Assembly (NCBI GenBank): GCA_003222395.1
Contig: QHWB01000042.1
Coordinates: 1 to 64,000 of the forward strand
Length of the DNA stretch: 64,000 nucleotides
From: Acidobacteriota bacterium
GTDB taxonomy: Bacteria; Acidobacteriota; Vicinamibacteria; Vicinamibacterales; CAVVIG01
Direction of reading: 5' to 3'
Position 1 is the stretch's first letter. Each line of letters begins with the position of its first letter. Below, one piece after another: positions 4,439 through 35,840 of the stretch. The notes beneath the pieces were generated by a model. That model did no database searches. It was given only the letters and a program-made list of their open reading frames with translations, and was not told the origin of the DNA. The translations under genes and the position numbers were made by a program.

Positions 4439-5380
4439 CTATGCAGGCCGCACACGGGTGGCGTGGACGGCTTGAGCGAGGGTCTGCGCCAGGGAGACGC
4501 CATCGGCGACGGCCCAGAAGTGCATGTAGAAAAGACGCGGTCGGTCGTCGAGGCTGTGGTTGTGGAGCTCGACGATCTGGATACCGCCTGCGCGCAGGGC
4601 GACGATCACATCTTGAACTTCGTCGGTGGTCATGGCGAAATCACCGTTGATAGCGGCTTTCTGGTCGCCGATCGGCTGAAAGTTGAGCGCAGTGATCACG
4701 CCCATAGATGGTGGCGCCACGCGCCCGTGTACCACGATGGTTTCGATGAGGGCGAAGGTGAATTTGTATATCCCGCCATCGTTCTTGCCGACTGTGCCAA
4801 GAGCCGCGTCAATTCCGGCGGTGTCAAGGTCGATTGGCCGTGGGGGTGTGGGCGGTGCCGGTGGTGGGGTCGTCGTGTAGTCAAGAGCAACGCGCACGCC
4901 TTGAGCGATGTTGACGGCTTTGCCTACGGCGTGGAAGTGCGTCCACCACAGATCGGGGTCGTGTGCCAGCAGGTGTTTGTGGATGGCGGTCTGGTCGATC
5001 TCGTGGGCGTGAAGCGCGTCGGTCACTGCGGTTAGCTCGGTTTCCGTGACAACGAGGTCGCCCATGGCCATCGCCTTGCCGTCGCGGTAGGACGCGAACG
5101 CGGCGTATGAACCGAGTGACAGACCGGCCGCGACATGGATCCCGTACGAAGTGACAGCGAGGTCTCGACGAGGGAAGCCGACGCGATAGACAGTGCCGCT
5201 GTTGAGTGTGCCGGTGCGGCCCAGCGCGTGGGCGACCGACTGCCAATCTGCCTCGGTCGTTAGTATCGGCGACAGGGCAGGTCCGCGGCCGTGGCCGTCC
5301 GGGTCATGTGTGGCGACTTGTCCGGTAATCGCGGCCGCGGGGGCGACGGCTAGAGTTTTCAAGAGGGTGCGTCGTTGCAT
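4439..5380 (-). CDS. DUF1259 (LppY/LpqO-like) exported protein, copy 1
   Basis: Function unknown. From the chosen start (MQRRTLLKTLAV, ATG 5380, preceded by GGAG) the protein has about 313 residues and a Tat-like N-terminus with RRTLLK before a hydrophobic stretch, so export is likely. Two related halves of about 130 residues follow, joined by a proline-rich linker (TTPPPAPPTPPRP). Each half has a His cluster near its end: IHKHLLAHDPDLWWTHFHAVG in the first and LHNHSLDDRPRLFYMHFWA in the second. These fit a metal- or ligand-binding site repeated twice. A longer ORF start at 5428 exists but adds a segment unlike a signal peptide. A second, diverged copy lies at 33029-33949 beside chromate genes. 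A palindromic box upstream (5487-5504) may control it. Confidence 0.75.
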   Translation of the reverse strand: MQRRTLLKTLAVAPAAAITGQVATHDPDGHGRGPALSPILTTEADWQSVAHALGRTGTLNSGTVYRVGFPRRDLAVTSYGIHVAAGLSLGSYAAFASYRDGKAMAMGDLVVTETELTAVTDALHAHEIDQTAIHKHLLAHDPDLWWTHFHAVGKAVNIAQGVRVALDYTTTPPPAPPTPPRPIDLDTAGIDAALGTVGKNDGGIYKFTFALIETIVVHGRVAPPSMGVITALNFQPIGDQKAAINGDFAMTTDEVQDVIVALRAGGIQIVELHNHSLDDRPRLFYMHFWAVADGVSLAQTLAQAVHATRVRPA

Positions 5381-5776
5381 CGGGTGTCTCCGTGTTGTCG
5401 CGAGCCTGTGAGCGGTCAAAGGCGACAACGGATAGGTGATAAGAAGTCACAGACCTTGGACTGTACCACCCGGTTTCGGAGGCGAGCCTGACATCTCTGT
5501 CAGGATCGCCGTTTTGAGAAGACACGAATTCGCGATTTACGGATGAGGAAGGCAACACGTACGAGATTGCGATCAAGAACAATCGGTATTTGTCGTTCGT
5601 TAGAACACGATCCAAGACCGACATGGCAGTCGTCCAAGTCGTCTATCGTTCGCGGAACGCATTCATCGCAGCGCACCGAAGGACTCTTGTCATAAAGAAT
5701 GAATCAACGAGGCTGCTGCGGCGCGATGGGGATAGTGGCCTCGCAAACGAGTTGAACAGTGTGGGTCACGTGCTGT
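5381..5776. other. Intergenic region upstream of DUF1259 copy 1
   Basis: No convincing gene is seen in these roughly 400 bases. The part next to 5380 holds the likely promoter of DUF1259 copy 1 and a perfect inverted repeat (entered separately). The remainder, up to the end of the broken receptor gene at 5777, is less GC-rich than its surroundings and has no recognisable coding content. Confidence 0.4.
5487..5504. promoter_or_regulatory. Candidate CusR/CopR-type operator, perfect inverted repeat
   Basis: The site reads CCTGACA-TCTC-TGTCAGG, a perfect 7-bp inverted repeat with a 4-bp spacer, about 107 bases upstream of the DUF1259 start at 5380. Its core TGACA-N4-TGTCA has the same half-site and spacing as the known E. 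coli CusR box. A near-identical site lies upstream of the second two-component locus (35676-35693). That a response regulator binds here is inference. Confidence 0.5.
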
Positions 5777-7304
5777 TCAAAACTGCATCTTGACCCCGAA
5801 CTGCATCTGCCGGGCGGGCTGCGCGCTGAAGATGCGCCCGAAATTCGATGTGCCAAATATGCGATTCGGGACGTCAAAGTTCACACGGTTGAAGAGATTG
5901 AAAATCTCCCAGCGCAGTTCCAGACGAGCGCCTCCAGCGAGAACGACGTCCTTCTGCAAGCTCGCGTCGACGTTGGCATAGCCCGGCGCTCGCACGGTAT
6001 CGCGACCGGAATTGCCAAATGTGAATGACGGAGGCAACGAAAACACAGTCGTGTTGAACCATTGTTCGGCGGTCCTGCGCCGCCGATATTCGGATCGCCG
6101 GCGACGTCGGGCCGCTGCGCTGGACCTGAGCCGATGTTGGCGTGGTCGGTGCCAAGATTGACCGTGAACGGTGCGCCAGACTGAAGATTGACGATCGCAT
6201 TGACCCGCCAGTTTGAACCGAAGGCGCCGCCGATCGGCGGCAACGCCCACGTGGCGTTGCCAACGAAACGGTGCCGGTGATCGAAGCTGGCGAGCGCCCG
6301 CTCCGCCGCCATGTTCCGCACGTCCTGCGGCAGGTTGGTTTCGAACGACGTCGCTCCCGGATCGGACGCGTCGTCGGTGGCTTTCGACAGCGTGTAGCTC
6401 CCCAAGAACGCCAGGCCGTGCGACAACCGCTGCTCGGCGCGGAGCGTCAAACCGTTGAAGACGGAGTAGCCGTCCCAGCGGATGGCGGGAATGTTCGCGA
6501 GCTGCGGCACAGGCCATCGGGGACTGATGGCGTCCGGTCCTGGCATCGGCACATTCAGCACGGTGGAGCTGTCAGCTCCGACAATCGTCGACCGCAGGAC
6601 GCTCGCCTCGACCACGGTCGTTGATGTGAGCCCTCATAGCTGAGAAAAAAGAAACTCCGATTGCGGACGATTGGGCCACCGAGGTTCGCACCGAACTGAT
6701 GCTGCTTCAAGGGAGGTACGGGTTGTGCCGGGTCGTCGAAGTAGTTGCGAGCGTCGAATTTGTCGCTACGGACGAACTCGAGCGCGCTGCCGCGTAACGC
6801 GTTGCTCCCCGACTTCGTGACCACGTTGATCAGCGCTGACGCCTTTCCGCCGAATTCCGCCGGGTACATCGTCTTCTGGATCTTGAATTCCTGGATGGCA
6901 TCGATCGACGGACTCACCACGAGGTTATTGAAAAACTCGTCGGTCACCTTGACGCCGTCCAAGAGATAGATGTTGTGGCCGCTGCGCTGCCCGTACACTC
7001 TGGGCAGACTCCCCGTTTGGCCCAGCGCGGCGCCACGGGTGCCGCCGGGCGGAATCGCAATCCCGTCGGTGAGCTGCGCCAGCTGAACGAACTGGCGGCC
7101 GTTGAGCGGCAACTGCACGACCTGACGATTGTCGATGACGTTGCCACGTTCGGCATTGGCCGTGTTCAAGAGGCCGGCGGCTGCGCTGACCGTGATCGCA
7201 TCCGTCATACCACCGACCTGGAGGACCACTGACACGGTCAGTCGCTGGCCGACGTTCAAGCGAATGCCCGCCTCGGTCACCTTTGTAAAGCCGGTCAGTT
7301 CGAC
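5777..7304 (-). pseudogene. Oar-type TonB-dependent receptor, plug and C-terminal barrel part, frameshifted and internally deleted
   Basis: This is the larger, downstream part of an outer-membrane receptor gene whose N-terminal part is at 14119-14377. From 7304 the frame reads LTGFTKVTEAGI and then a plug domain (LPLNGRQFVQLAQLTDG, YLLDGVKVTDEFFNN, EFGGKASALINVVTKSGSN) up to FFFLSYEGSHQ near 6635. There it jumps, out of frame, to a barrel segment (YSVFNGLTLRAEQRLSHG, LASFDHRHRFVGNATW). A further frame change leads to the end (WEIFNLFNRVNFDVPNRI, RQMQFGVKMQF). Several hundred residues of the middle barrel are missing compared with an intact receptor of about 1000 residues. The 5' break at 7304 is the IS66 insertion point. 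Confidence 0.85.
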
Positions 7305-7375
7305 GTAAGCGTTCGACGAACACCGTCTTGAAACGTCACATGCGGTCGTGCAAACTGGCCCGGAGACGTCGGTTG
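7305..7375 (+). repeat. Left terminal inverted repeat and subterminal region of the IS66-type element
   Basis: It begins GTAAGCGTTCGACGAAC and aligns, with scattered mismatches, to the reverse complement of 14048-14118. GTAAGCG tips are characteristic of IS66-family ends. The distance from tip to the tnpA start region is the same as in the right copy. Confidence 0.8.
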
Positions 7376-8650
7376 GCGTCCAATCAACGGGACGCGGCGG
7401 CGCATGAGGGCATTAGTGCGGCAACGCTACATCCTCGAGCACGAAGACAACGAGATGCTGCGGTCGTACCTGGTGCAGCCGTAGCGACGTAGAGATTGCG
7501 ATTTCGTCGTCCGACGCGTCCTGCCACGCATAGCCGCTCACGCCGCGCGCGGTGCATTCCTCTGAACCTGCGAGGCGTGCACGCGCGCGCGCCGATGAGC
7601 AAACCGCCGTTGCGTTAAACGCCTTACTGCTTGTGCACCGCGGTCGACCTGCCGCACGCCGTTTACCGCTCCTTTGAACCGGGAATCCACCTCCGTTTGA
7701 ATAACGGTGACGATCCATTCGGGATGCGCCCCGCCGTTGTCGGCTCGTCGGACGGAATGTAGCCGTTAGTCCGGTCGCTGCTACTGTCGTAACGCAGCAG
7801 CCGCCAGCAATTCTCTTCGGGTCAGCGCCTCCACGGCAGACGCGATTCCGGGCACAAGTTCTCGCGGGCAAGAGACGCGGCTCCGCGCAGTCGTCGCCGC
7901 GAAGCCCGATCCGAAGCAGCTGGCGGTGGCGCGCTTGACGCGACGCCGACGCACGAACGCGACGACGCTGAGGCGTTCCTCGTGTCGTTTGCGTCCGATC
8001 TCCAGGCCGCCGCCTGCACGGGGTACGAGACTATGCGACTGGCCGGCTTCGGGAAATTGGCTGTTCGGCCCACGCGCACCGCGGCTTCGTCGAAGCGCTG
8101 ACCACGATGCGCGCGCGCTGATGGCCACGTTGATCCAGCAGCTCTATGACGTGGAGCGCGCAGGGGCGAAGCCTTGGCCGACGCCAACCGGGATCTGCGC
8201 CAAGCGCAGTCGATGCCACTGCTCTCCGAAATCGCGGCCGAACGCGACGCGCTCGCCCACACCCTGCTCCCGAAACCCGGCGGGGCGATGCGTTCGGCTA
8301 TCTGACCAATCAATTGACCGCCCTGCAGGTTTGTCGACGATGGGCGGCTCGAATTGATTGATAACCATCGCGCCGAGAACCAGCTGCGCGTCGTCGCCCT
8401 CGACCGGAAGAACTGGCTCTTTGCGTCCAGCTCTAAGGGCGCGGCGCGCGGCATTGCTATCTTCGCTCGTCCAGAGCCGCCAGCTGATCGAGATCCCGCC
8501 GCTTCGCTATCTCAAAGACGTCCTGATGCGCGTGGCCACCAACCCGCAGCGGTTGGTTGGCCAGCTCACGCGGAAAGGCGCGGCCGAACCTTCCGTTACC
8601 AAGACCCCGCGTAACTCCCTTGCGCCGGCCATGATGTCGCGAGTGCCACA
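7305..8650 (+). mobile_element. Degenerate left IS66-family copy
   Basis: The terminal repeat is followed by a stretch matching the start of tnpA in the right copy (around 7365-7425, for example cattagtgcggcaa against cattagtggggcag). The tnpA remainder and tnpB are not recognisable. From about 7930 fragments of tnpC appear in several plus-strand frames: LDATPTHERD, then ALMATLIQQLYDVER near 8120, then IDNHRAENQLRVVALDRKNW near 8355-8420, and LRYLKDVLMRVATNPQRL near 8505-8560. Each matches the right copy or the expected IS66 C-terminus, but frameshifts and deletions prevent a working transposase. The exact inner boundary is unclear. Confidence 0.75.
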
Positions 8651-9444
8651 CGGCCAGACGAAACGAACGCGGAAGGGGCCCGAGAATTCCGGCGCTCGGC
8701 ACGCACCGGCTCGACGAGTCGTTGAAGAAAACATCATTGACGCGTACGGAGAGTCGGATCAGCGTATCGGAGTGCTCACGATGGTCGAAACGCGGCTGGC
8801 CGTGCTCATTACAAGCGAGATGCTCGGGACGCCTGTCCGTGTCGAACCGCACGCGAGACTCAAGAGAATTCCGCCGAATGGCCTACTGCTTTGGTGCTAG
8901 AACTTGCCCGTCGTTGGTCCAGACAGTCTCCTCTGTCTCACGAATAAAAGCGATACACGGCGCGGCCGCGCGATAGCGGAATCCCAGCGGTTAAATTGTT
9001 GCTGGTAAAGGAACGGGCTTTTTGGACGTTTCTGTAAACACATGGCACGTTCAATGCTTAATCGCACAAGCACAAAAATTGAACAGCGCATAACCATGCG
9101 CTCCACGCCGTGTTGATCAACGCCTAGATTGGGGCGGTACCTCCACCCACTAGCGAGCGCCGAATCATGAAGGTGCAGTTGGTGACAATGAGTCGTCGGA
9201 TCGATCCGTCCCTGAATCCGCGTGGATTCGGAGCCGACGCAAACGCGTGAATCTACAGGCTTCACGCCGACGCTGAAGAAACATGGCCGGAACGTGCCTT
9301 TGAGTGAGTTGCGGTGTGATGAGGCATCGGACACTTTTCTGATCCGCCCACGTCACGAGCCACGTGCCGTCGACGGTGAGGGTAGTCGTCACTGAGCGAC
9401 CGCGGGCCTCTATGCCTCACCCCTGCTAGAGAGGAGGAGTTGCT
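8651..9444. other. Stretch without recognisable genes between IS66 remnant and oxidase
   Basis: No ORF here resembles a known protein; the translations are short and low in plausibility. The last bases hold the ribosome-binding site of the multicopper oxidase (GAGGAGG at about 9431-9438). The base composition is more AT-rich than the flanking receptor DNA, as in the two cargo genes. It may include the lost inner end of the left IS66 copy and the oxidase promoter. Confidence 0.4.
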
Positions 9445-11259
9445 GTGGCCTACATCTCTAAAATCAACAGAAGACAACTCAGGGATCAGGCGAACGCCGC
9501 AAAGAACAGGCGCGAGCTCATCGCGGCACAGTTCAGCAGAAGAGACTTGATGAAGATGGGGCTGCTGACGAGCGCGGGCCTTCTGATTCCCAAGCGAGGA
9601 TTAAGCGTCCGCGCCCAAGATGCGCTCTCATCGTTCGGTCAGACCGGTCAGTGTACAAGCCCGGCGACCACGCCATTCGTCGACCTCCTTCCCATCATGC
9701 CGGTGAAGCAGTCGGTACCCTCGCTCAACCCGGCGCCGACCGAATGCCCGAATACCGCCGCCGGCGAGAGCCGCACGCGTTGCCATCAAGCGTTTACGCA
9801 GCTCCCACCGCAGCGACTGTATCAGGTCGTTCAACAGACGGCCAACGTCACCGTGAGCCCGGACTTGCCCGTCCAAACCATGTGGGGCTTCGATGCGATT
9901 GTTCCGGGTCCCACCTATGTCAGCAACTACGGTGTGCCAATCCTCGTCCGCAATGTCAACAGCCTTCCGATCAATAACGGCGGCTTTGGATTGCCTTCGG
10001 TTTCGACTCACCTGCACAACGGCCATACTCCATCTGAAAGCGATGGCTTCCCCTGCGACTTCTTTGAGATAGGCCATTTCTATGATCAGCACTACCCGAA
10101 TGTGCTGGCAGGGTTCGCCTCGGACCATCAGCCCAACGGCGACATCAATGAAGCGCTGAGCACGCTTTGGTATCACGACCACCGCGTGGATTTCACGTCG
10201 CAGAATGTCTACAAGGGGCTGGCCGGATTCTTTCTCTTGTTCAACCAATTCGACACCGGCAATGAGAGCACCGGGTTCCATCTTCCTAGCTTCCCGGACT
10301 TCGACATCCCGATGATGTTCGCAGACAAGTGCTTCGATCAAGCCGGGTTACTGGCCTTCGATCTGTTCAATCTGGATGGCATTCTGGGAGACAAATTCCT
10401 GGTCAACGGCAAGATTCAACCGGTGCTGCATGTCAGCCCGCGCAGGTACCGATTCCGCTGGCTGAATAGCGGCCCTTCGCGCTTCTATCAGATCTTTCTC
10501 ACGAGGTTGGACTCCTCCACGACGAATCAGTTCTGGCAGATTTCCAACGACGGCAACCTGCTCCCGCACCCAATCCAGATCTCGTCCGTCAAACTCGGCG
10601 TCGCCGAACGTGCGGATGTGATCATCGACTTCGCACCGTTCGCGGGGCGAACTCTATATCTGGAGAATCGTCTGGTACAAAGAAATGGACGCGGCCCCGA
10701 CTGCGAACTGAGTCAGCGTGGTCAAGGTAACTTGCTGCTCCAGATCGTTGTGGATCTTCCGCCGGTGGCCGACAACAGTGTGGACCCGGCGACGAACCCC
10801 ACATTCTATACTCTTCCGGATAAGACCGCTCAGCCGAGGGTCACGCGCACTTTCAACTTTGAGCTGACGCAGAACGGTCAATGGACAATCAACAACCAAT
10901 TCATGGACTGCAACACCATTCGCTTCACCGTGCAGCAGAACACCGTGGAACGCTGGGTCTTAAGGAATACGCAAACTGATCGTCCTGCCTGGACACACCC
11001 GATCCATATTCACTTCGAGGAGTACCAAATCTTCTCTGGGAACAATCAGTTCTGCTTCAATGAACCGCCGACCTCGGTCAACGTATCCCGCAAGGACGTG
11101 ATACGACTGAATCCCAATACCCAGGTCACACTGTTCTTCCGCTTCCGCGACTTCCTCGGGCGCTATCCCATGCATTGCCACAACACGATTCACGAGGATC
11201 ACGCGATGATGTTGCGCTGGGAGATCGGCACGACGGGTGATCTGAACCAGAATCCGTAA
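9445..11259 (+). CDS. Multicopper oxidase (CotA/bilirubin-oxidase-like), Tat-exported
   Basis: A 604-residue laccase-type oxidase that would couple one-electron oxidation of a substrate (phenolics, Cu(I) or Mn(II) are possible) to reduction of O2 to water outside the cytoplasm. The GTG start is set by GAGGAGG just upstream. A Tat signal (SRRDLMKMGLL, residues 31-41) follows a charged extension. All four copper motifs are present: HLHNGH at 189-194, WYHDH at 242-246, HPIHIHF near 515, and HCHNTIHEDHAMM from 577 with H577, C578, H583 and axial M588. So type 1, 2 and 3 sites look complete. A SCO copper chaperone gene follows 74 bases downstream, which fits a copper-loading partner. Codon and base use look less GC-rich than in neighbouring genes, consistent with arrival on the transposon. 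Confidence 0.9.
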   Translation: MAYISKINRRQLRDQANAAKNRRELIAAQFSRRDLMKMGLLTSAGLLIPKRGLSVRAQDALSSFGQTGQCTSPATTPFVDLLPIMPVKQSVPSLNPAPTECPNTAAGESRTRCHQAFTQLPPQRLYQVVQQTANVTVSPDLPVQTMWGFDAIVPGPTYVSNYGVPILVRNVNSLPINNGGFGLPSVSTHLHNGHTPSESDGFPCDFFEIGHFYDQHYPNVLAGFASDHQPNGDINEALSTLWYHDHRVDFTSQNVYKGLAGFFLLFNQFDTGNESTGFHLPSFPDFDIPMMFADKCFDQAGLLAFDLFNLDGILGDKFLVNGKIQPVLHVSPRRYRFRWLNSGPSRFYQIFLTRLDSSTTNQFWQISNDGNLLPHPIQISSVKLGVAERADVIIDFAPFAGRTLYLENRLVQRNGRGPDCELSQRGQGNLLLQIVVDLPPVADNSVDPATNPTFYTLPDKTAQPRVTRTFNFELTQNGQWTINNQFMDCNTIRFTVQQNTVERWVLRNTQTDRPAWTHPIHIHFEEYQIFSGNNQFCFNEPPTSVNVSRKDVIRLNPNTQVTLFFRFRDFLGRYPMHCHNTIHEDHAMMLRWEIGTTGDLNQNP

Positions 11260-11333
11260 TGTGACTGCGCGTCGCCACGGCGCCCGAAGCGCCTGCAGAC
11301 CGCTATAGGAGATGAGAAAGGAGACGGCCAGCC

Positions 11334-11981
11334 ATGATAGATAGAAGAAACCTGATGGCAGTGGTTGGAATGGCTCCGTTCGCCGGTTGGACTTCGGCGC
11401 GGGCGTTCACGGAAGATTCCAAACCGAACGCAGCGCCGAAGACGTCACGTGAAGTGCTGAGGGATCGCTATTTCCCCAACGTCGTGCTGACGACTCACGA
11501 AGGCAAAAAGGTCAGGTTCTACGATGACCTGCTCAAGGACAAGATCGTGGTGCTCAATTTCATGTATGCGAGTTGCGAAGGGGTTTGTCCTGTAATCACG
11601 GCGAACCTGATGACGGTTCAGAAACTTCTCGGCGAACGGGTCGGTCGAGACATCTTCATCTATTCGATCACTGTCAGGCCGGAGGAGGACAGTCCGAAGG
11701 TGCTGAAAGAGTATGCGCGCATGCATGGAATCGGGCCTGGCTGGCTGATTCTGACCGGCGAGCCCAAGGACGTTGAGCTTCTTCGGGCCAAGCTGGGCTT
11801 CGTTGATCCCAATCCGGAGGTGGATAGAGACAAGGCGCGGCATAGTGGCGTGATTCGGTTCGGGAACGAACCGCTTCAGCGGTGGGGCGCGTGCCCCGGG
11901 CAGTCCGCTCCCGACTGGATCGTCGCGTCGATCAAATCCGTCGATTGGCCGAAAAGCGAACAAGCCAAGCGAGCAGGCTGA
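11334..11981 (+). CDS. SCO1/SenC/PrrC-family copper chaperone
   Basis: A thioredoxin-fold, copper-binding protein of 215 residues. The family delivers copper to the CuA site of cytochrome oxidase or to other cuproenzymes and can act as a thiol redox protein. The Cu ligands are visible: CEGVCP with C81 and C85, and a conserved histidine H170 in DKARHSGVIRF. The N-terminus (MIDRRNLMAVVGMAPFAGW) looks like a Tat or Sec signal with a twin arginine. A ribosome site (AAGGAGA) precedes the ATG. Its position behind a multicopper oxidase inside the same composite element suggests that it metallates that oxidase; this is inference. The stop lies only a few bases from the truncated end of the right tnpC, so the original downstream sequence was lost there. 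Confidence 0.9.
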   Translation: MIDRRNLMAVVGMAPFAGWTSARAFTEDSKPNAAPKTSREVLRDRYFPNVVLTTHEGKKVRFYDDLLKDKIVVLNFMYASCEGVCPVITANLMTVQKLLGERVGRDIFIYSITVRPEEDSPKVLKEYARMHGIGPGWLILTGEPKDVELLRAKLGFVDPNPEVDRDKARHSGVIRFGNEPLQRWGACPGQSAPDWIVASIKSVDWPKSEQAKRAG

Positions 11982-11984
11982 CTT

Positions 11985-13365
11985 TTGAGTCTCTGTTTCC
12001 CGCGAACAACCAGTTCTTCCGGCCGAGCGCGACGATGCGGAGCTGGTTCTCGGCCCGATTATTGTCGATCGCGAGCCGTCCGTCCTCCACGAAGCGCTGG
12101 AGCGCTGCCCACTGATTCGTCAGGTACCGGAGCGCATCGCCCAACGGCGATTTGGGGAGCACGGTCCGGGCGAGCTGGTCGCACTCGGTCGCGATCTTCG
12201 TGAGGAGCAGCCGCGAGTCCGTCTGGCGCAGCGCCCGCCGTCTCTCCGGATCGAGTTCGGCGGCTACGTGTTCGACCTGATAGAGTTGCTGCACGAGCGC
12301 GACCATGAGGGCCGCCCGCACATCGGTGGCCAGCGCTTCCACAAAGCCCCGGCGGGCGTGCGCCCAGCAGCCGATTTCTCGAATCCGTCCCGTGGTGTAG
12401 AGCGCGTCGTAGCCGGTGTAGGCGTCAGCCTGGAGATCGCCGGCAAATGAGGCGAGGAACGTTTCGGGTCCGTCGCGCTCGTGCGTCGGCGTCGCGTCGA
12501 ACACCACCTGGCGGCCGATCGGATCAAGTTACGTCCAGAGCCGGCCTTTTCGACTGCCGCCAAAGGCTTCGAGAATCGTCACCGGCGTATCGTCAGTTTG
12601 CAGATAGGTGGCGCCGGTCACCTGGCGTCAGAGCTCGTCGCCGATCGGCGTCAGCGCCGTCGCGACGTCCGCGACCCAGCCGCATAACGTGGTCCGCGAC
12701 AAATCAAGCCCTTGGCGGAGCAAGATCCGTTCGAGGCGGTACAGCGGCAGATGATCGACGTATTTGGAGACGACGACGTGCGCGAGGAGCCCTTCCGCAG
12801 CCAGCGATTTCTCGACCGCTTGCGGGGGCGCCGCCGCCTCGATGACGCCGTCGTGACAGCGCGGGCACGCGTACTTGAACCGCGCCGTTTCGAGCACGCG
12901 CACGCTCGCCGGAATATACTCGGGTTTTTCGGACACCGACTCGCTGATCCGCACCTTCGTCTGTCCGCAGGCGCAGATCTTGTCCGCCTCCGGCACGTCG
13001 ATCTCCACACGCTGCCGCGGCAACGCGGGCGGCAGCAGGCGGCGACCAGTCGGGGGCGCGGCCCGACGCCGGGAACGGCCCGGCCGCTCCCCGGAATCCA
13101 TTTCGATCGGCTCGGACGCGGCCTGCGGCTCATTCGCTAACTGGGCAAACGCGAGCCGCAATTGATCCGGGCTCACCCGTTCCGATTTCTTGCCGAACAA
13201 CCGCTGACAGAGGACGTTGAGTTGATGCTGGAGGGTCGCCTTCTCGCGCCGCAGTTTCGTGATCTCGTCCCGCAGCGTGGCAATGAGCGTACGCGCAGTC
13301 GCCAGATCATCGACGTCGCCCATGCGCGCATCGGACACGCCGCCATGATACGCGACATCGATCAC
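11985..13365 (-). pseudogene. tnpC: IS66 transposase TnpC with two in-frame stops and a truncated C-terminus
   Basis: One continuous frame runs from MIDVAYHGG at 13365. It has an N-terminal coiled coil (TLRDEITKLRREKATLQHQ), a zinc-finger-like region (CACGQTKV, CPRCHDG) and the DDE-type core (YLQTDDTPVTILEAFGGS, ADAYTGYDALY, CWAHARRGFVEAL, NNRAENQLRIVALGRKNW). TGA at 12630-12628 and TAA at 12531-12529 interrupt it without changing frame; the family usually has Arg and Tyr-like codons there. After NWLFAG the sequence departs from the family, so roughly the last 70 residues are gone. This transposase is unlikely to work unless stops are read through. Confidence 0.88.
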
Positions 13366-13386
13366 TCGTACAAGCCGATGTTCCTC

Positions 13387-13737
13387 TCAGGCGACGCGTT
13401 CATACCAGCGGCGATGCCGCGTGTGCGTCAGACCCACGCCGGCGAGCAACAGCAACAGGTCGGCGCTCCGCATCTCCACGCGGACCCCGTCCTCGACCGC
13501 GGGCCACGTAAAGATGCCGCGCTCGAGCCGCTTGTACAGCACCCAGAAGCCCGCTCGATCCCACGCCAGGATCTTCACGCGATCGCCGCGCCGGTTGCGA
13601 AACAGGAAGAGATGGCCCGAGAGCGGATCCAGATCGAACCGTTCTCGGACCAGCGCGGCGAGGCCGTCGATGGAGCGCCGCAGATCCGTGGCGCCGGTCG
13701 CCACATAGATCCGAACCGCCGCGGAGATCGTCAGCAC
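13387..13737 (-). CDS. tnpB: IS66 accessory protein TnpB
   Basis: A 116-residue protein with the family signature: VYVATGATDLRRSIDGLAAL, then HLFLFRNRRGDRVKILAWD and GFWVLYKRLERG. The family is needed for transposition of most IS66 elements together with TnpA and TnpC; its biochemical role is unclear. It overlaps the end of tnpA by a few bases, as is typical. Length and motifs look intact. Confidence 0.92.
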   Translation of the reverse strand: MLTISAAVRIYVATGATDLRRSIDGLAALVRERFDLDPLSGHLFLFRNRRGDRVKILAWDRAGFWVLYKRLERGIFTWPAVEDGVRVEMRSADLLLLLAGVGLTHTRHRRWYERVA

Positions 13738-14048
13738 GTTTCCCGAAGGGCCGAGAGAATCGCGCGGAGCAGGCCAGCGGACACACCATCGCGGATCGTC
13801 AATCGCTCGCCGTTCGCGAGCGCGACTTCGACGACCCCGCGATCCGCCGGCTCCGTCGCCTTAATCAACTGCACCGGCGCAAATCCGGTCGGCTCGGTGG
13901 CCACGTCCTGACGAATGCGTCTCTTCCAGTAATCAAATTGCCAAACAGTCAGCCCATGCCGATGCGCGAATGCCCCCCGCGATTCACCACTCCGCTCCCA
14001 CTGCCCCACTAATGCCGTCATGTCCTGCCGAGTCCCGTTCGTCGCCAC
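13731..14048 (-). CDS. tnpA: IS66 accessory protein TnpA
   Basis: A 105-residue small protein with an N-terminal helix-turn-helix-like segment (ALVGQWERSGESRGAFAHRH, then GLTVWQFDYWKRR) and a C-terminal part ending GLLRAILSALRETC. It is the first gene of the IS66 operon and starts about 70 bases inside the terminal repeat. A matching but decayed start is seen in the left copy near 7375. Confidence 0.88.
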   Translation of the reverse strand: MATNGTRQDMTALVGQWERSGESRGAFAHRHGLTVWQFDYWKRRIRQDVATEPTGFAPVQLIKATEPADRGVVEVALANGERLTIRDGVSAGLLRAILSALRETC

Positions 14049-14118
14049 CCGACACCTCCGGGCTCGGGTCTGAAGGACCGCTTGTGGCGGTTCAAGACGG
14101 CGTTCATCGAACGCTTAC
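14048..14118 (-). repeat. Right terminal inverted repeat and subterminal region of the IS66-type element
   Basis: Read on the minus strand from 14118 it begins GTAAGCGTTCGATGAAC, matching the left end at 7305. The region up to the tnpA start is the inverted counterpart of 7305-7375. The bases just outside, 14119-14125, are the right copy of the imperfect target duplication. Confidence 0.8.
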
Positions 14119-14377
14119 GTTCGATCGACAACACGTATTCGCCGATCGGAACCTCAGAGAACAGAAACCGTCCCGCCAGGTCGGACGTCCGTTCTCGCGT
14201 CAGCCCGCTTGCGGCATGTTTGATAGTGACCGCCGCGCCAGGAACGGCACCGCCGAGCGCATCGTGCACCGTACCGTCAATCTCTCCCGTGTTCATTTGG
14301 GTGGTGACGTTCTGGACGATGAACATGATCCCTGCAAGCCACATCACAGAGCCGGGCAACCAGGCGCGGACAGGCAT
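14119..14377 (-). pseudogene. N-terminal piece of the broken Oar-type TonB-dependent receptor
   Basis: From ATG 14377 the protein has a hydrophobic signal segment (WLPGSVMWLAGIMFIVQNV) followed by a carboxypeptidase-regulatory-like domain: GEIDGTVHDALGGAVPGAAV, then AGRFLFSEVPIGEYVLSIE. The domain is cut in mid-strand at the IS66 end (14118); the ORF then reads on into the element as nonsense. The continuation is at 7304-5777 on the same strand. Such receptors transport large or metal-chelating substrates across the outer membrane; the substrate here is unknown. Confidence 0.85.
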
Positions 14378-33028: not shown

Positions 33029-33949
33029 CTACTGTTTGGTCGCTGCAGGCGCCTTCGCCTTGCCCGTTTCGCTCACCGCGGCCTTGAAGGCGGTCGCCAG
33101 CTTCTCCGCAGGGCCGGTGCCCCAGTAATGCAGGAAGTAGATCGTCGGCTGCGTCCCCGTCATGTGATGGTGGATCGCCACGACGTCGATGCCGCTCTTG
33201 CGAAGCGCCTTGAGCACCGGCTCGACTTCATTCGCCAACATCGCCACATCCCCCGCCACCGCGGCGTTGTCGTTCGTGCCCACGAACGCCGCCCACGTAT
33301 TGAGGCCCATGCGCGCGTTGATTGGCGCACCCATTTCCGTGAGCTTCAAGTCATCTCGACCGATCGTGATCTTGTAGACGGCGCCGGTTTGTTCGCCTTG
33401 CGTGCCAACGATCTGCGCAAGCTTCGCAGTGTCGATCGTCGGCGCAGGAGCCGCGGCTGGTGCAGCCGGGGCGGCGGCTGTCGTCCGGCTGGTGCCTTTT
33501 CCGATCAAATCGAGCGCAGGCTTCACTTTGCGTGCGAGGTCGGCTGGCTTGCCGTGTGCGTGCACGTGCATGTAGAACATGCGCGGCTCTTCCCAGAAGA
33601 AGTGATTGTGGAGCGCGGTCACGTCGATGCCGTTGTCGAGCAGCGCGGACATCACCGGGTTGACCTCGTCCTGCGTGAGCACGAGATCGCCCATCATGAC
33701 GTCCATTCCGCCGGTGCCCTTGGTCATCGCCACCCAGCCGCCGAACCCGAACGGTGTCGGGGTCTTCACGTTGGCGACGGTGACGGTGACGTCGTTGCGC
33801 GGGATGTTGACCTTGAGGACGTTGGCCTTGTAATCGCCCTGTTTGCCGAGCGCCGTCAGCACCTGCTGATACTCGGCCGGTATATCCTGCGCCCACGCCG
33901 CAGACGCACAGCACACTGAAGTCAGGCCGATCGCGAAAATGCGTTTCAT
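33029..33949 (-). CDS. DUF1259 exported protein, copy 2
   Basis: A 306-residue protein from ATG 33949 (GGGGAG upstream) with a Sec signal (MKRIFAIGLTSVCCASAAWA). Like copy 1 at 4439 it contains two related halves: the first ends in ALHNHFFWEEPRMFYMHVHA and the second in AIHHHMTGTQPTIYFLHYWG, each following a MGDLVLTQDE or AGDVAMLANE-type segment. The linker is alanine/proline-rich. The paired His clusters suggest metal or oxyanion binding, but the family has no proven function. Its place at the head of a chrB-chrA operon hints at a role in chromate or metal tolerance (inference). Confidence 0.8.
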   Translation of the reverse strand: MKRIFAIGLTSVCCASAAWAQDIPAEYQQVLTALGKQGDYKANVLKVNIPRNDVTVTVANVKTPTPFGFGGWVAMTKGTGGMDVMMGDLVLTQDEVNPVMSALLDNGIDVTALHNHFFWEEPRMFYMHVHAHGKPADLARKVKPALDLIGKGTSRTTAAAPAAPAAAPAPTIDTAKLAQIVGTQGEQTGAVYKITIGRDDLKLTEMGAPINARMGLNTWAAFVGTNDNAAVAGDVAMLANEVEPVLKALRKSGIDVVAIHHHMTGTQPTIYFLHYWGTGPAEKLATAFKAAVSETGKAKAPAATKQ

Positions 33950-33962
33950 GCGTGTCTCCCCT

Positions 33963-34030
33963 TTCCTGAGTTGCGTATTTGTGCTCACTTTTCAGTTTCC
34001 TGAGTTGCGCATTCGTGACTACTTCTCAGT
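33963..34030. repeat. 34-bp tandem duplication at the end of the second kinase gene
   Basis: Units 33963-33996 and 33997-34030 both read ttcctgagttgcg...ttc/tcagt with few differences. The right unit encodes the last kinase residues. The left unit lies between the kinase stop region and the DUF1259 ribosome site. It appears to be a local slippage or unequal-crossover event. Confidence 0.65.
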
Positions 34031-35421
34031 GATGGCGGCGTGATCGGGATCACGATCCGGAACACCGATCCAACCTTCGCGCCATCTTCGACCGAGATAC
34101 GACCGTCATTCACTTCGACCGCCCATTTGGCTATGGCCAAGCCCAGCCCGGCGCCGCCATGGTCCCGCGAACGGGCTTCATCGATGCGAAAGAACCGATC
34201 GAAAATCCGCTGGCGGTCCGAAGGGGCGATCCCGGGGCCTTCATCGGCGACACTGAGATGCGCCTGATTGCGGTCCGCATACACTCGAATGCTGATTGAC
34301 GATGCCTGCGCGCTGTATTTGATCGCGTTATCCAACACGTTCGTGATCGCCTCGCGGAGCACCAGGCGATCCGCGGTGACCGAAATGCCATCGGCCGCGT
34401 CGACGGTGACACGTTGGTTCCGCTCTTCCGCGAGAATCCCGAGTGAGGACACCACCTCGCGCGTGAGCTGCCCCAGATCGATCGCGCTGCGCGAGAGCCG
34501 GACGGTGCCCGCGTCTCCGTGTGACAAGCGCAAGAGCGTGTCCACGAGGTTCGTGAGTCGGTCAACCTCTTCGAGCATGCTGCCCATGGCCTCTTTGTAT
34601 TCGGCCGGCGTGCGCGTTTCGCCGAGTCCGGCCTCGCCAATACCCCGGATGACAGACAAGGGCGTGCGGAGCTCGTGCGACGCGTCGGCTGTAAAACGAC
34701 GAAGCTTGTCGAACGACGACTCGAGGCGGGCGAACGCATCGTTGATGACAGCCGCAAGCCGGCCGATTTCGTCGTGCTGATTCGGTACGGAGAGGCGTTC
34801 GTGCAACCGCTCGGCGGTAATGCGCCGGGCCTCGGACGCCAGATGATCGATGGGCGTGAGCGCCCGCCGCGCCAGCAGGTACCCGCCGACTCCAGCCAGC
34901 ACCACGACAACCGGAAGGCCGAACACGAGAACGACGAGCACTTCCCACAATTGGGTTCGCAGCCGCGTTTCGGCCCGAGACACTCTCAGCACGACCGCGC
35001 GTCCGCCAACCAGGGAGGTACCCGTAAGCGTCCGCCATGGGCGACCATTCGCAACGAGTGATTCGTACCGCGGCTGTGCCGTCGTCGCGGCGAGCGCCAC
35101 CGGAGGCAACGAGGCGGAGGCGCCGGATCGGTACACTTGCTCACCGCTAGCCAACCAGACGTCACTGCCACGATCCTCGTCGTTGTCCGGATCATGATGG
35201 CGGTCGCCGAACCACGCGATTCGACCATCGCCCGCGGGTGTGAGAAACCCTTCGGCTGCTTCGAAATCGCCGTGCAACTGATCGTCGAACTGCTCCAAGA
35301 ATTCATGGCGAACCGCGACGAATGTCGCGGTGGCGTACACCACCAGCATCAGCGACAGAACGACGGCATACCAAGCGGTGAGCTGGACCCGAATGGACGC
35401 GGTGGACCACCACGGTGTCAT
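33985..35421 (-). CDS. Membrane sensor histidine kinase with HAMP, metal-type
   Basis: A 478-residue kinase of the same class as the one at 18409. It has transmembrane segments near residues 14-36 and 165-187, and a periplasmic domain containing a histidine/aspartate-rich stretch ([15 protein letters not shown]) that could bind metal. HAMP ([18 protein letters not shown]) follows, then H-box ([17 protein letters not shown]), N box ([14 protein letters not shown]), G1 (ADEGPGIAP), F (FDRFFRIDE) and G2 ([12 protein letters not shown]). It looks complete. Its upstream partner gene, however, is reduced to a 73-residue fragment (35418-35639), so the kinase may lack its own regulator unless it talks to the regulator at 19824. 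Confidence 0.92.
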
Positions 35422-35639
35422 GGTTCGCCTTCTCGCAAGACAAACCCCACGCCGCGAACGGTGTGAATGAGCCGTGCGTTTCCTTCCGTGTCGACCTTCT
35501 TCCGCAGGCGGGTGATCCGCACATCGATGACGTTGTCGAGTGGAGTCGCGCGCGGCGGTTTGTTCCAGTGCTCCGCCGCCAGCGCCGACGCGAGAATCTG
35601 CGCCAGCTTGCGCTCATCTTCGACGACCAGAACTCTCAC
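35418..35639 (-). pseudogene. Response regulator reduced by an in-frame internal deletion
   Basis: The 73 residues are an exact start and an exact end of an OmpR-type regulator: [20 protein letters not shown] at the N-terminus and, from residue 25, the last part of the winged-helix domain ([20 protein letters not shown], then [12 protein letters not shown]). About 150 residues, including the phospho-acceptor aspartate and most of the recognition domain, are missing. The frame remains open and the stop overlaps the kinase start as in a normal pair. It cannot be phosphorylated in the usual way. Whether the short peptide is made is unknown. Confidence 0.85.
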
Positions 35640-35840
35640 TGGGTAGAAATGCTATCGGCGTACGCCTGACCCGATCCTGACATTTGCGTCAGGGAGCCCA
35701 ACTTCCTGCTGAAACGCAGCGGCAGGAGCGCTCCAAACGACCAGATGTGTGTCGAATCGACCTCGTCCGGATCGAATCGGTGAAATAGCGTCCCGTGGAG
35801 CGCGTTTGACGAGCCTCGGCCTCGCCGCCATAATGGCAGC
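35640..35840. other. Divergent intergenic region of the metal locus
   Basis: It separates the leftward two-component locus from the rightward His-rich protein and RND genes. A predicted operator cluster lies at 35665-35693. A short minus-strand ORF reaching from 35636 to 35881 is not supported by codon pattern or motif. No other gene is visible. Confidence 0.5.
35665..35693. promoter_or_regulatory. Operator-like cluster of CCTGAC half-sites
   Basis: CCTGAC occurs at 35665-35670 and again 11 bp later at 35676-35681, followed by inverted GTCAGG at 35688-35693. The last pair forms CCTGACA-TTTG-CGTCAGG, one base off the perfect box at 5487-5504 and the same TGACA-N4-TGTCA layout as known copper-regulator boxes. 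It lies 37-54 bases upstream of the truncated regulator start and about 150 bases upstream of the divergent His-rich gene. Confidence 0.5.

Follow-up and report, generated by a model that had tools for sequence, protein, structure and literature searches.

A probable IS66 composite transposon carrying a multicopper oxidase-SCO operon in a TonB-receptor gene of an Acidobacteriota genome

A TonB-receptor gene running from 14377 to 5777 on the minus strand is a single gene divided by a 6,814-bp IS66-type unit (7305-14118). The best explanation, to which we assign a probability of about 0.82, is that a composite IS66 transposon with an oxidase-SCO operon inserted into the receptor gene. All coordinates refer to the window, i.e. 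the whole 64,000-nucleotide stretch that was analyzed, which is part of a 167-kb contig (C18) of a 7.74-Mb genome assembled in 118 contigs.

The interrupted receptor gene

The N-terminal piece of the receptor (14119-14377, minus strand), which ends with the residues GEYVLSIE, consists of a signal region and a carboxypeptidase-regulatory-like domain (CarboxypepD_reg, PF13620, E 1.2e-11) and aligns with 13 orthologues. The remainder (5777-7304, minus strand) comprises the plug, the start of the barrel, a deletion at ∼6630, the end of the barrel, a frameshift, and a stop at 5777, as assessed by matches to OMP_b-brl_4 (PF25183) in three pieces and by tblastn with the orthologues L074-L077. When 14377-14119 is joined to the minus-strand sequence that begins at 7297, the result is SIELTGFTKVTEAG. 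In other words, when the unit is removed together with one target copy, the sequence GEYVLSIE-LTGFTKVTEAG is restored. We made trial joins in which 0 to 11 bases were dropped from the left flank, and SIE-LTGF is gap-free only when exactly seven bases, corresponding to one 7-nt left target copy, are dropped. The other in-frame joins either add extra residues (one or four bases dropped) or lose residues (ten bases dropped).

A search of 80 related genomes with the joined 309-residue protein identified 13 orthologues at 53-67% identity (53-70% when aligned across the joint), clearly set off from the next matches, which reach 46% at most. Each orthologue, once fetched and aligned, is one open frame of 1,093-1,548 codons, in which the N-terminal domain and the plug are contiguous. 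None of the 13 rows has a gap at the position of the joint, and one of them reads GEYVLSIELQGF. The succession of CarboxypepD_reg domain, plug, and outer-membrane barrel, the last found in pieces in the window and all contiguous in the orthologues, identifies the protein as an Oar-like TonB-dependent receptor. The initial annotation had proposed that the receptor is split at GTAAGCG ends and that its flanks rejoin in one frame, and had named an uninterrupted homologue in a relative as a check. Its proposal is borne out with exact junctions: the receptor is whole, with a gap-free joint, in 13 of 13 related genomes, and in none of them are the N terminus and the plug separate. Within the own genome, the best full-length paralogue of the joined receptor, the two halves themselves excluded, is 45% identical at most.

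Alignment with the orthologues also reveals lesions in the receptor beyond the insertion, i.e. the loss of ∼488 barrel residues at ∼6630 and the frameshift near 6080. This decay may have come after the insertion, which is the order given in the initial annotation, or before it.

Several features of the surroundings were recorded in passing. The genome has a very large repertoire of CarboxypepD_reg/plug/barrel receptors, with ∼145 further places matching the joined receptor. This richness in receptors and the kinship of its genes fit a probable soil acidobacterium. In a related genome (G010, L075:3651-7097), the receptor orthologue lies upstream of a regulator-kinase-DUF1259-efflux cluster, whose genes are 72-84% identical to those of the window. 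The window has ∼100 bp (35697-35796) where G010 has the receptor orthologue, and its only orthologue is ∼21 kb away, so that the receptor behaves like a one-gene cassette. The response regulator of the window (35421-35696, minus strand), beside the histidine kinase at 33985-35421, has no more than ∼26 residues left from its start and ∼54 from its end, and its orthologue in L075 is whole. There are two DUF1259 proteins in the window; compared with the single DUF1259 protein of the L075 cluster, that at 33029-33988 is ∼82-84% identical and that at 4439-5428 is ∼30% identical. At the start of the contig (16-4140), a TraD-like coupling protein and a MobF relaxase suggest an integrated conjugative element that extends beyond the contig boundary.

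IS66 genes, outer ends, and target site

The right part of the unit is an IS66 copy read on the minus strand. Its tnpA (13731-14048, 105 aa; NF047593 IS66 TnpA, E 9e-17, above cut-off) and tnpB (13387-13737, 116 aa; TnpB_IS66 PF05717, E 5e-36; NF033819 above cut-off) are intact. Its tnpC (11999-13365) is a pseudogene. As assessed by read-through translation and comparison with a complete IS66 copy on contig C47 of the same genome, it has two nonsense codons (12630-12628 and 12531-12529) and has lost its 3' part together with the inner inverted repeat. Homology to tnpC ends at 11999, 17 bp from the stop codon of the SCO gene. Matches to Pfam models (PF05717, PF03050, PF13005, and PF13007) and to the NCBIfam models, covering TnpA, TnpB, and a TnpC with the IS66 DDE domain, support the family assignment made originally, with an interrupted and truncated tnpC.

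Both outer ends of the unit display terminal inverted repeats starting with GTAA, as in IS66. Inverted GTAAGCG ends are found at 7305 and 14118, and the 53-nt arms (7303-7355 and 14068-14120) are 85% complementary. The right outer end is an IRL (14089-14118, minus strand; GTAAGCGTTCGATGAACGCCGTCTTGAAC), as determined by direct reading and end comparison. The left outer end (7305-7423, plus strand) consists of an IRL, a leader, and the first codons of tnpA; it matches the right IS end at 78% over ∼120 bp and the other IS66 ends examined at 59% at most. Both ends are thus tnpA-side (IRL) ends. Aligned with each other over 120 bp, they are 76% identical, whereas other IS66 ends of this and related genomes reach 35-59%, and among the IS66 ends examined each is the best match of the other.

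The unit is flanked by GTTCGATC (8 bp, 14119-14126) on the right and by GTTCGAC, which is one base (T) short, on the left (7298-7304). IS66 copies elsewhere in the genome, on contigs C47 and C87, are bordered by perfect 8-bp duplications (TCCGTCGG and CAGGGAAA), and 8 bp is the target duplication reported for IS66 (PMC6778807), including for listed members of 2,731-2,829 bp (PMC3281130). Because the sister copies and the literature agree on 8 bp, the simplest reading is a duplication of the usual IS66 type, GTTCGATC, from which one base has been lost on the left. The imperfect duplication described at first is therefore present, but it is better read as 8 bp than as 7 bp. A duplication within one edit occurs in 0.24% of random position pairs of this window.

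The nature of the outer ends bears on whether two ISs were involved. In one alternative, the unit is a single IS66 with passenger genes (tIS66, such as ISPa75 with fosZ), in which the right IS is the sole IS, the passengers follow tnpC, and 7305 is the IRR. Such elements are documented (PMC12888890), the right IS is without any other IRR, and the SCO gene abuts its truncated tnpC. However, the left end is IRL-like for 120 bp including the start of tnpA, whereas IRL and IRR of the complete C47 copy have only ∼22 bp in common, and the passengers adjoin a truncated rather than a complete tnpC. We consequently regard this alternative as improbable. A composite transposon fits better because both outer ends are of the IRL type and most like each other.

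Cargo, left-side remnants, and a composite insertion

Between the IS ends lies cargo unrelated to transposition, as in a composite transposon, namely an operon of two intact genes on the plus strand. The first (9445-11259) encodes a Tat-type multicopper oxidase of 604 aa (Cu-oxidase_2, E 3.3e-19), with a twin-arginine-like start and all four copper-ligand motifs (HLHNGH, WYHDH, HPIHIH, and HCHNTIHEDHAMM). The second (11334-11981) encodes an SCO/SenC-family copper-handling protein of 215 aa (SCO1-SenC PF02630, E 1.2e-16) with a CEGVC motif. The SCO gene accompanies the oxidase gene in 84 of 86 fetched loci, indicating a widespread operon, and in one genome (G017, L087:189-5825) the pair occurs twice, in tandem. 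In a phylogenetic tree, the oxidase branches next to a clade formed by sequences from Acidobacteriota and Rokubacteria (support 91), apart from the other oxidases of the host. We also considered low GC over the oxidase gene as a sign of recent foreign origin, and rejected this because its GC3 (0.72) is as in neighboring genes. No IS66 was found beside the operon within the fetched flanks of the 86 loci, some of which are short contigs, and neither oxidase nor SCO genes were found next to other IS66 copies, be it in the own genome or in related ones. Only a single insertion of the composite was seen, with none at a second location in the own genome or in the 86 oxidase loci.

The left side of the unit is far more scrambled than the title of the initial annotation suggests. 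Homology to the right IS breaks after the 119-bp end and is followed on the plus strand by a scrap of another multicopper oxidase gene, from its 3' end (7418-7487, ending in RYILEHEDNEMLRSYLVQP stop). Over ∼50 bp, its DNA is 82-86% identical to oxidase genes of related genomes. Next comes what remains of a second SCO gene after loss of its middle part (7631-7827, minus strand), which has two colinear matches to the L089 SCO gene (107 bp at 73%, E 4.8e-10, and 55 bp at 73%). Pfam gave no match for the oxidase scrap (24 aa) or the SCO scrap (65 aa), whose identities rest on the DNA and protein matches. Then follow a frameshifted tnpC fragment of IS66 and a downstream ORF (7937-8848, plus strand), 80% identical to a copy on contig C19 of the same genome and 73-74% identical to the right IS. 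A search between 8400 and 9460 for an inner inverted repeat of this fragment gave 12 of 20 matches at best, with no convincing candidate. In the tree, the fragment groups with the C19 copy (support 88/87), and the AU test fails to reject its pairing with the right copy (p 0.062). From these sequence comparisons, it probably belongs to another IS66 lineage than the right IS. A left IS66 that is a plain decayed twin of the right copy is disfavored by the higher identity to C19 and, at that AU value, formally not rejected.

This patchwork, in which IS66 pieces that may stem from two lineages are mixed with scraps of two further genes, would fit a history in which separate IS66 insertions and recombinations built the block in place, the match of the target copies being due to chance. 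Against such serial accretion, the outermost borders fall on both ends of a single duplicated 8-bp target, where the protein also joins up without a gap, the duplication alone has a chance frequency of only 0.24%, and the outer ends are mutual best matches. It seems no likelier to us than a lone IS with passengers. An assembly artefact joining unrelated contigs via IS66 repeats, conceivable for a genome in 118 contigs, is highly implausible, since the closest other IS66 copy in the genome is only 81% identical, so identical repeats could not have misled the assembler, and the two flanks belong to one gene, each being a half of it.

We therefore favor a composite transposon that has two IS66 IRL ends, both facing outward, as its borders and the multicopper oxidase and SCO operon as its cargo. 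It would have inserted once into the gene for the CarboxypepD_reg/plug/barrel receptor, duplicating 8 bp, with an IS66 transposase acting on both outer ends together in one event. The left half would afterwards have been shortened by deletions. Its ancestral form probably comprised a complete IS66 along with another oxidase gene and another SCO gene, and the scraps suggest that these two genes were part of the original cargo. The composite named in the title of the initial annotation is thus favored by the IRL-type outer ends, but its left side is a 119-bp IRL end with scraps of other genes, and the two-IS structure is a reconstruction, with no complete left IS66 copy and a right copy lacking its inner end. 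As for an IS of matching lineage at each end, the outer ends are 76% alike, the left one is only a 119-bp fragment, and the tnpC fragments may represent two lineages. Also counting against a composite are the ∼24% divergence of the outer ends, which exceeds expectation for copies identical at a fairly recent insertion, and the left tnpC fragment, which is probably of another lineage. Moreover, no relative with this composite at another site was found among the oxidase loci and IS66 copies examined. In its present state, the unit could move only if its ends were acted on by another IS66 transposase of the genome.

No lesions are seen in the cargo genes, whereas several mark the IS copies and the receptor. 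That the cargo is intact amid decay suggests, without proving it, that selection acts on it and may have retained it as the rest decayed. The oxidase and SCO protein may act in the envelope, where they would handle or oxidize copper or else a substrate that is a metal or a phenolic compound. More tentatively, and less likely than not in our view, the block may be the remnant of an IS66-bounded transposon with at least two oxidase and at least two SCO genes. Such a transposon would have been a mobile copper-enzyme island in Acidobacteriota, and selection would have kept one working pair after transposon and target gene had died.

Comparison with known systems

The insertion is an ordinary kind of event and changes no general rule. 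Documented to the base and proven by orthologues that are uninterrupted, it is a case in which a mobile unit disables an outer-membrane receptor and at the same time brings in an operon for metal enzymes. Insertions of this sort are one way in which pairs of oxidase and SCO genes could be passed between soil phyla. Among the papers listed for IS66 composites with multicopper oxidases, no such element stood out.

With the IS66 family, the unit shares the TnpA, TnpB, and TnpC proteins, the GTAAGCG ends, and, in sister copies, the 8-bp target duplication; it differs in that its right copy is without an inner end and a working tnpC, and that its left side consists of an end fragment and scraps. 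The oxidase resembles those of the bilirubin oxidase and CotA type with an SCO neighbor, its best solved matches being bilirubin oxidase (E 1.5e-60) and CotA, but such pairs elsewhere are without IS66 in the fetched flanks, unlike this IS66-bounded pair. As in tIS66 elements such as ISPa75 with fosZ (PMC12888890), IS66 ends carry genes not involved in transposition, and the terminal bases are very similar (GTAAGCGTCCGGCGAA). However, ISPa75 is one IS with an IRL and an IRR and its passenger after tnpC, whereas both outer ends here are of the IRL type, which is not the tIS66 arrangement of IRL at one end, IRR at the other, and passenger after tnpC. Finally, in classical composites such as Tn6097, which is formed by two copies of ISPfe2 of the IS1634 family (PMC3281130), a cargo is enclosed by two IS ends and moves together with them, as it may have done in this element; unlike Tn6097, it belongs to IS66, and its copies are degraded and not identical.
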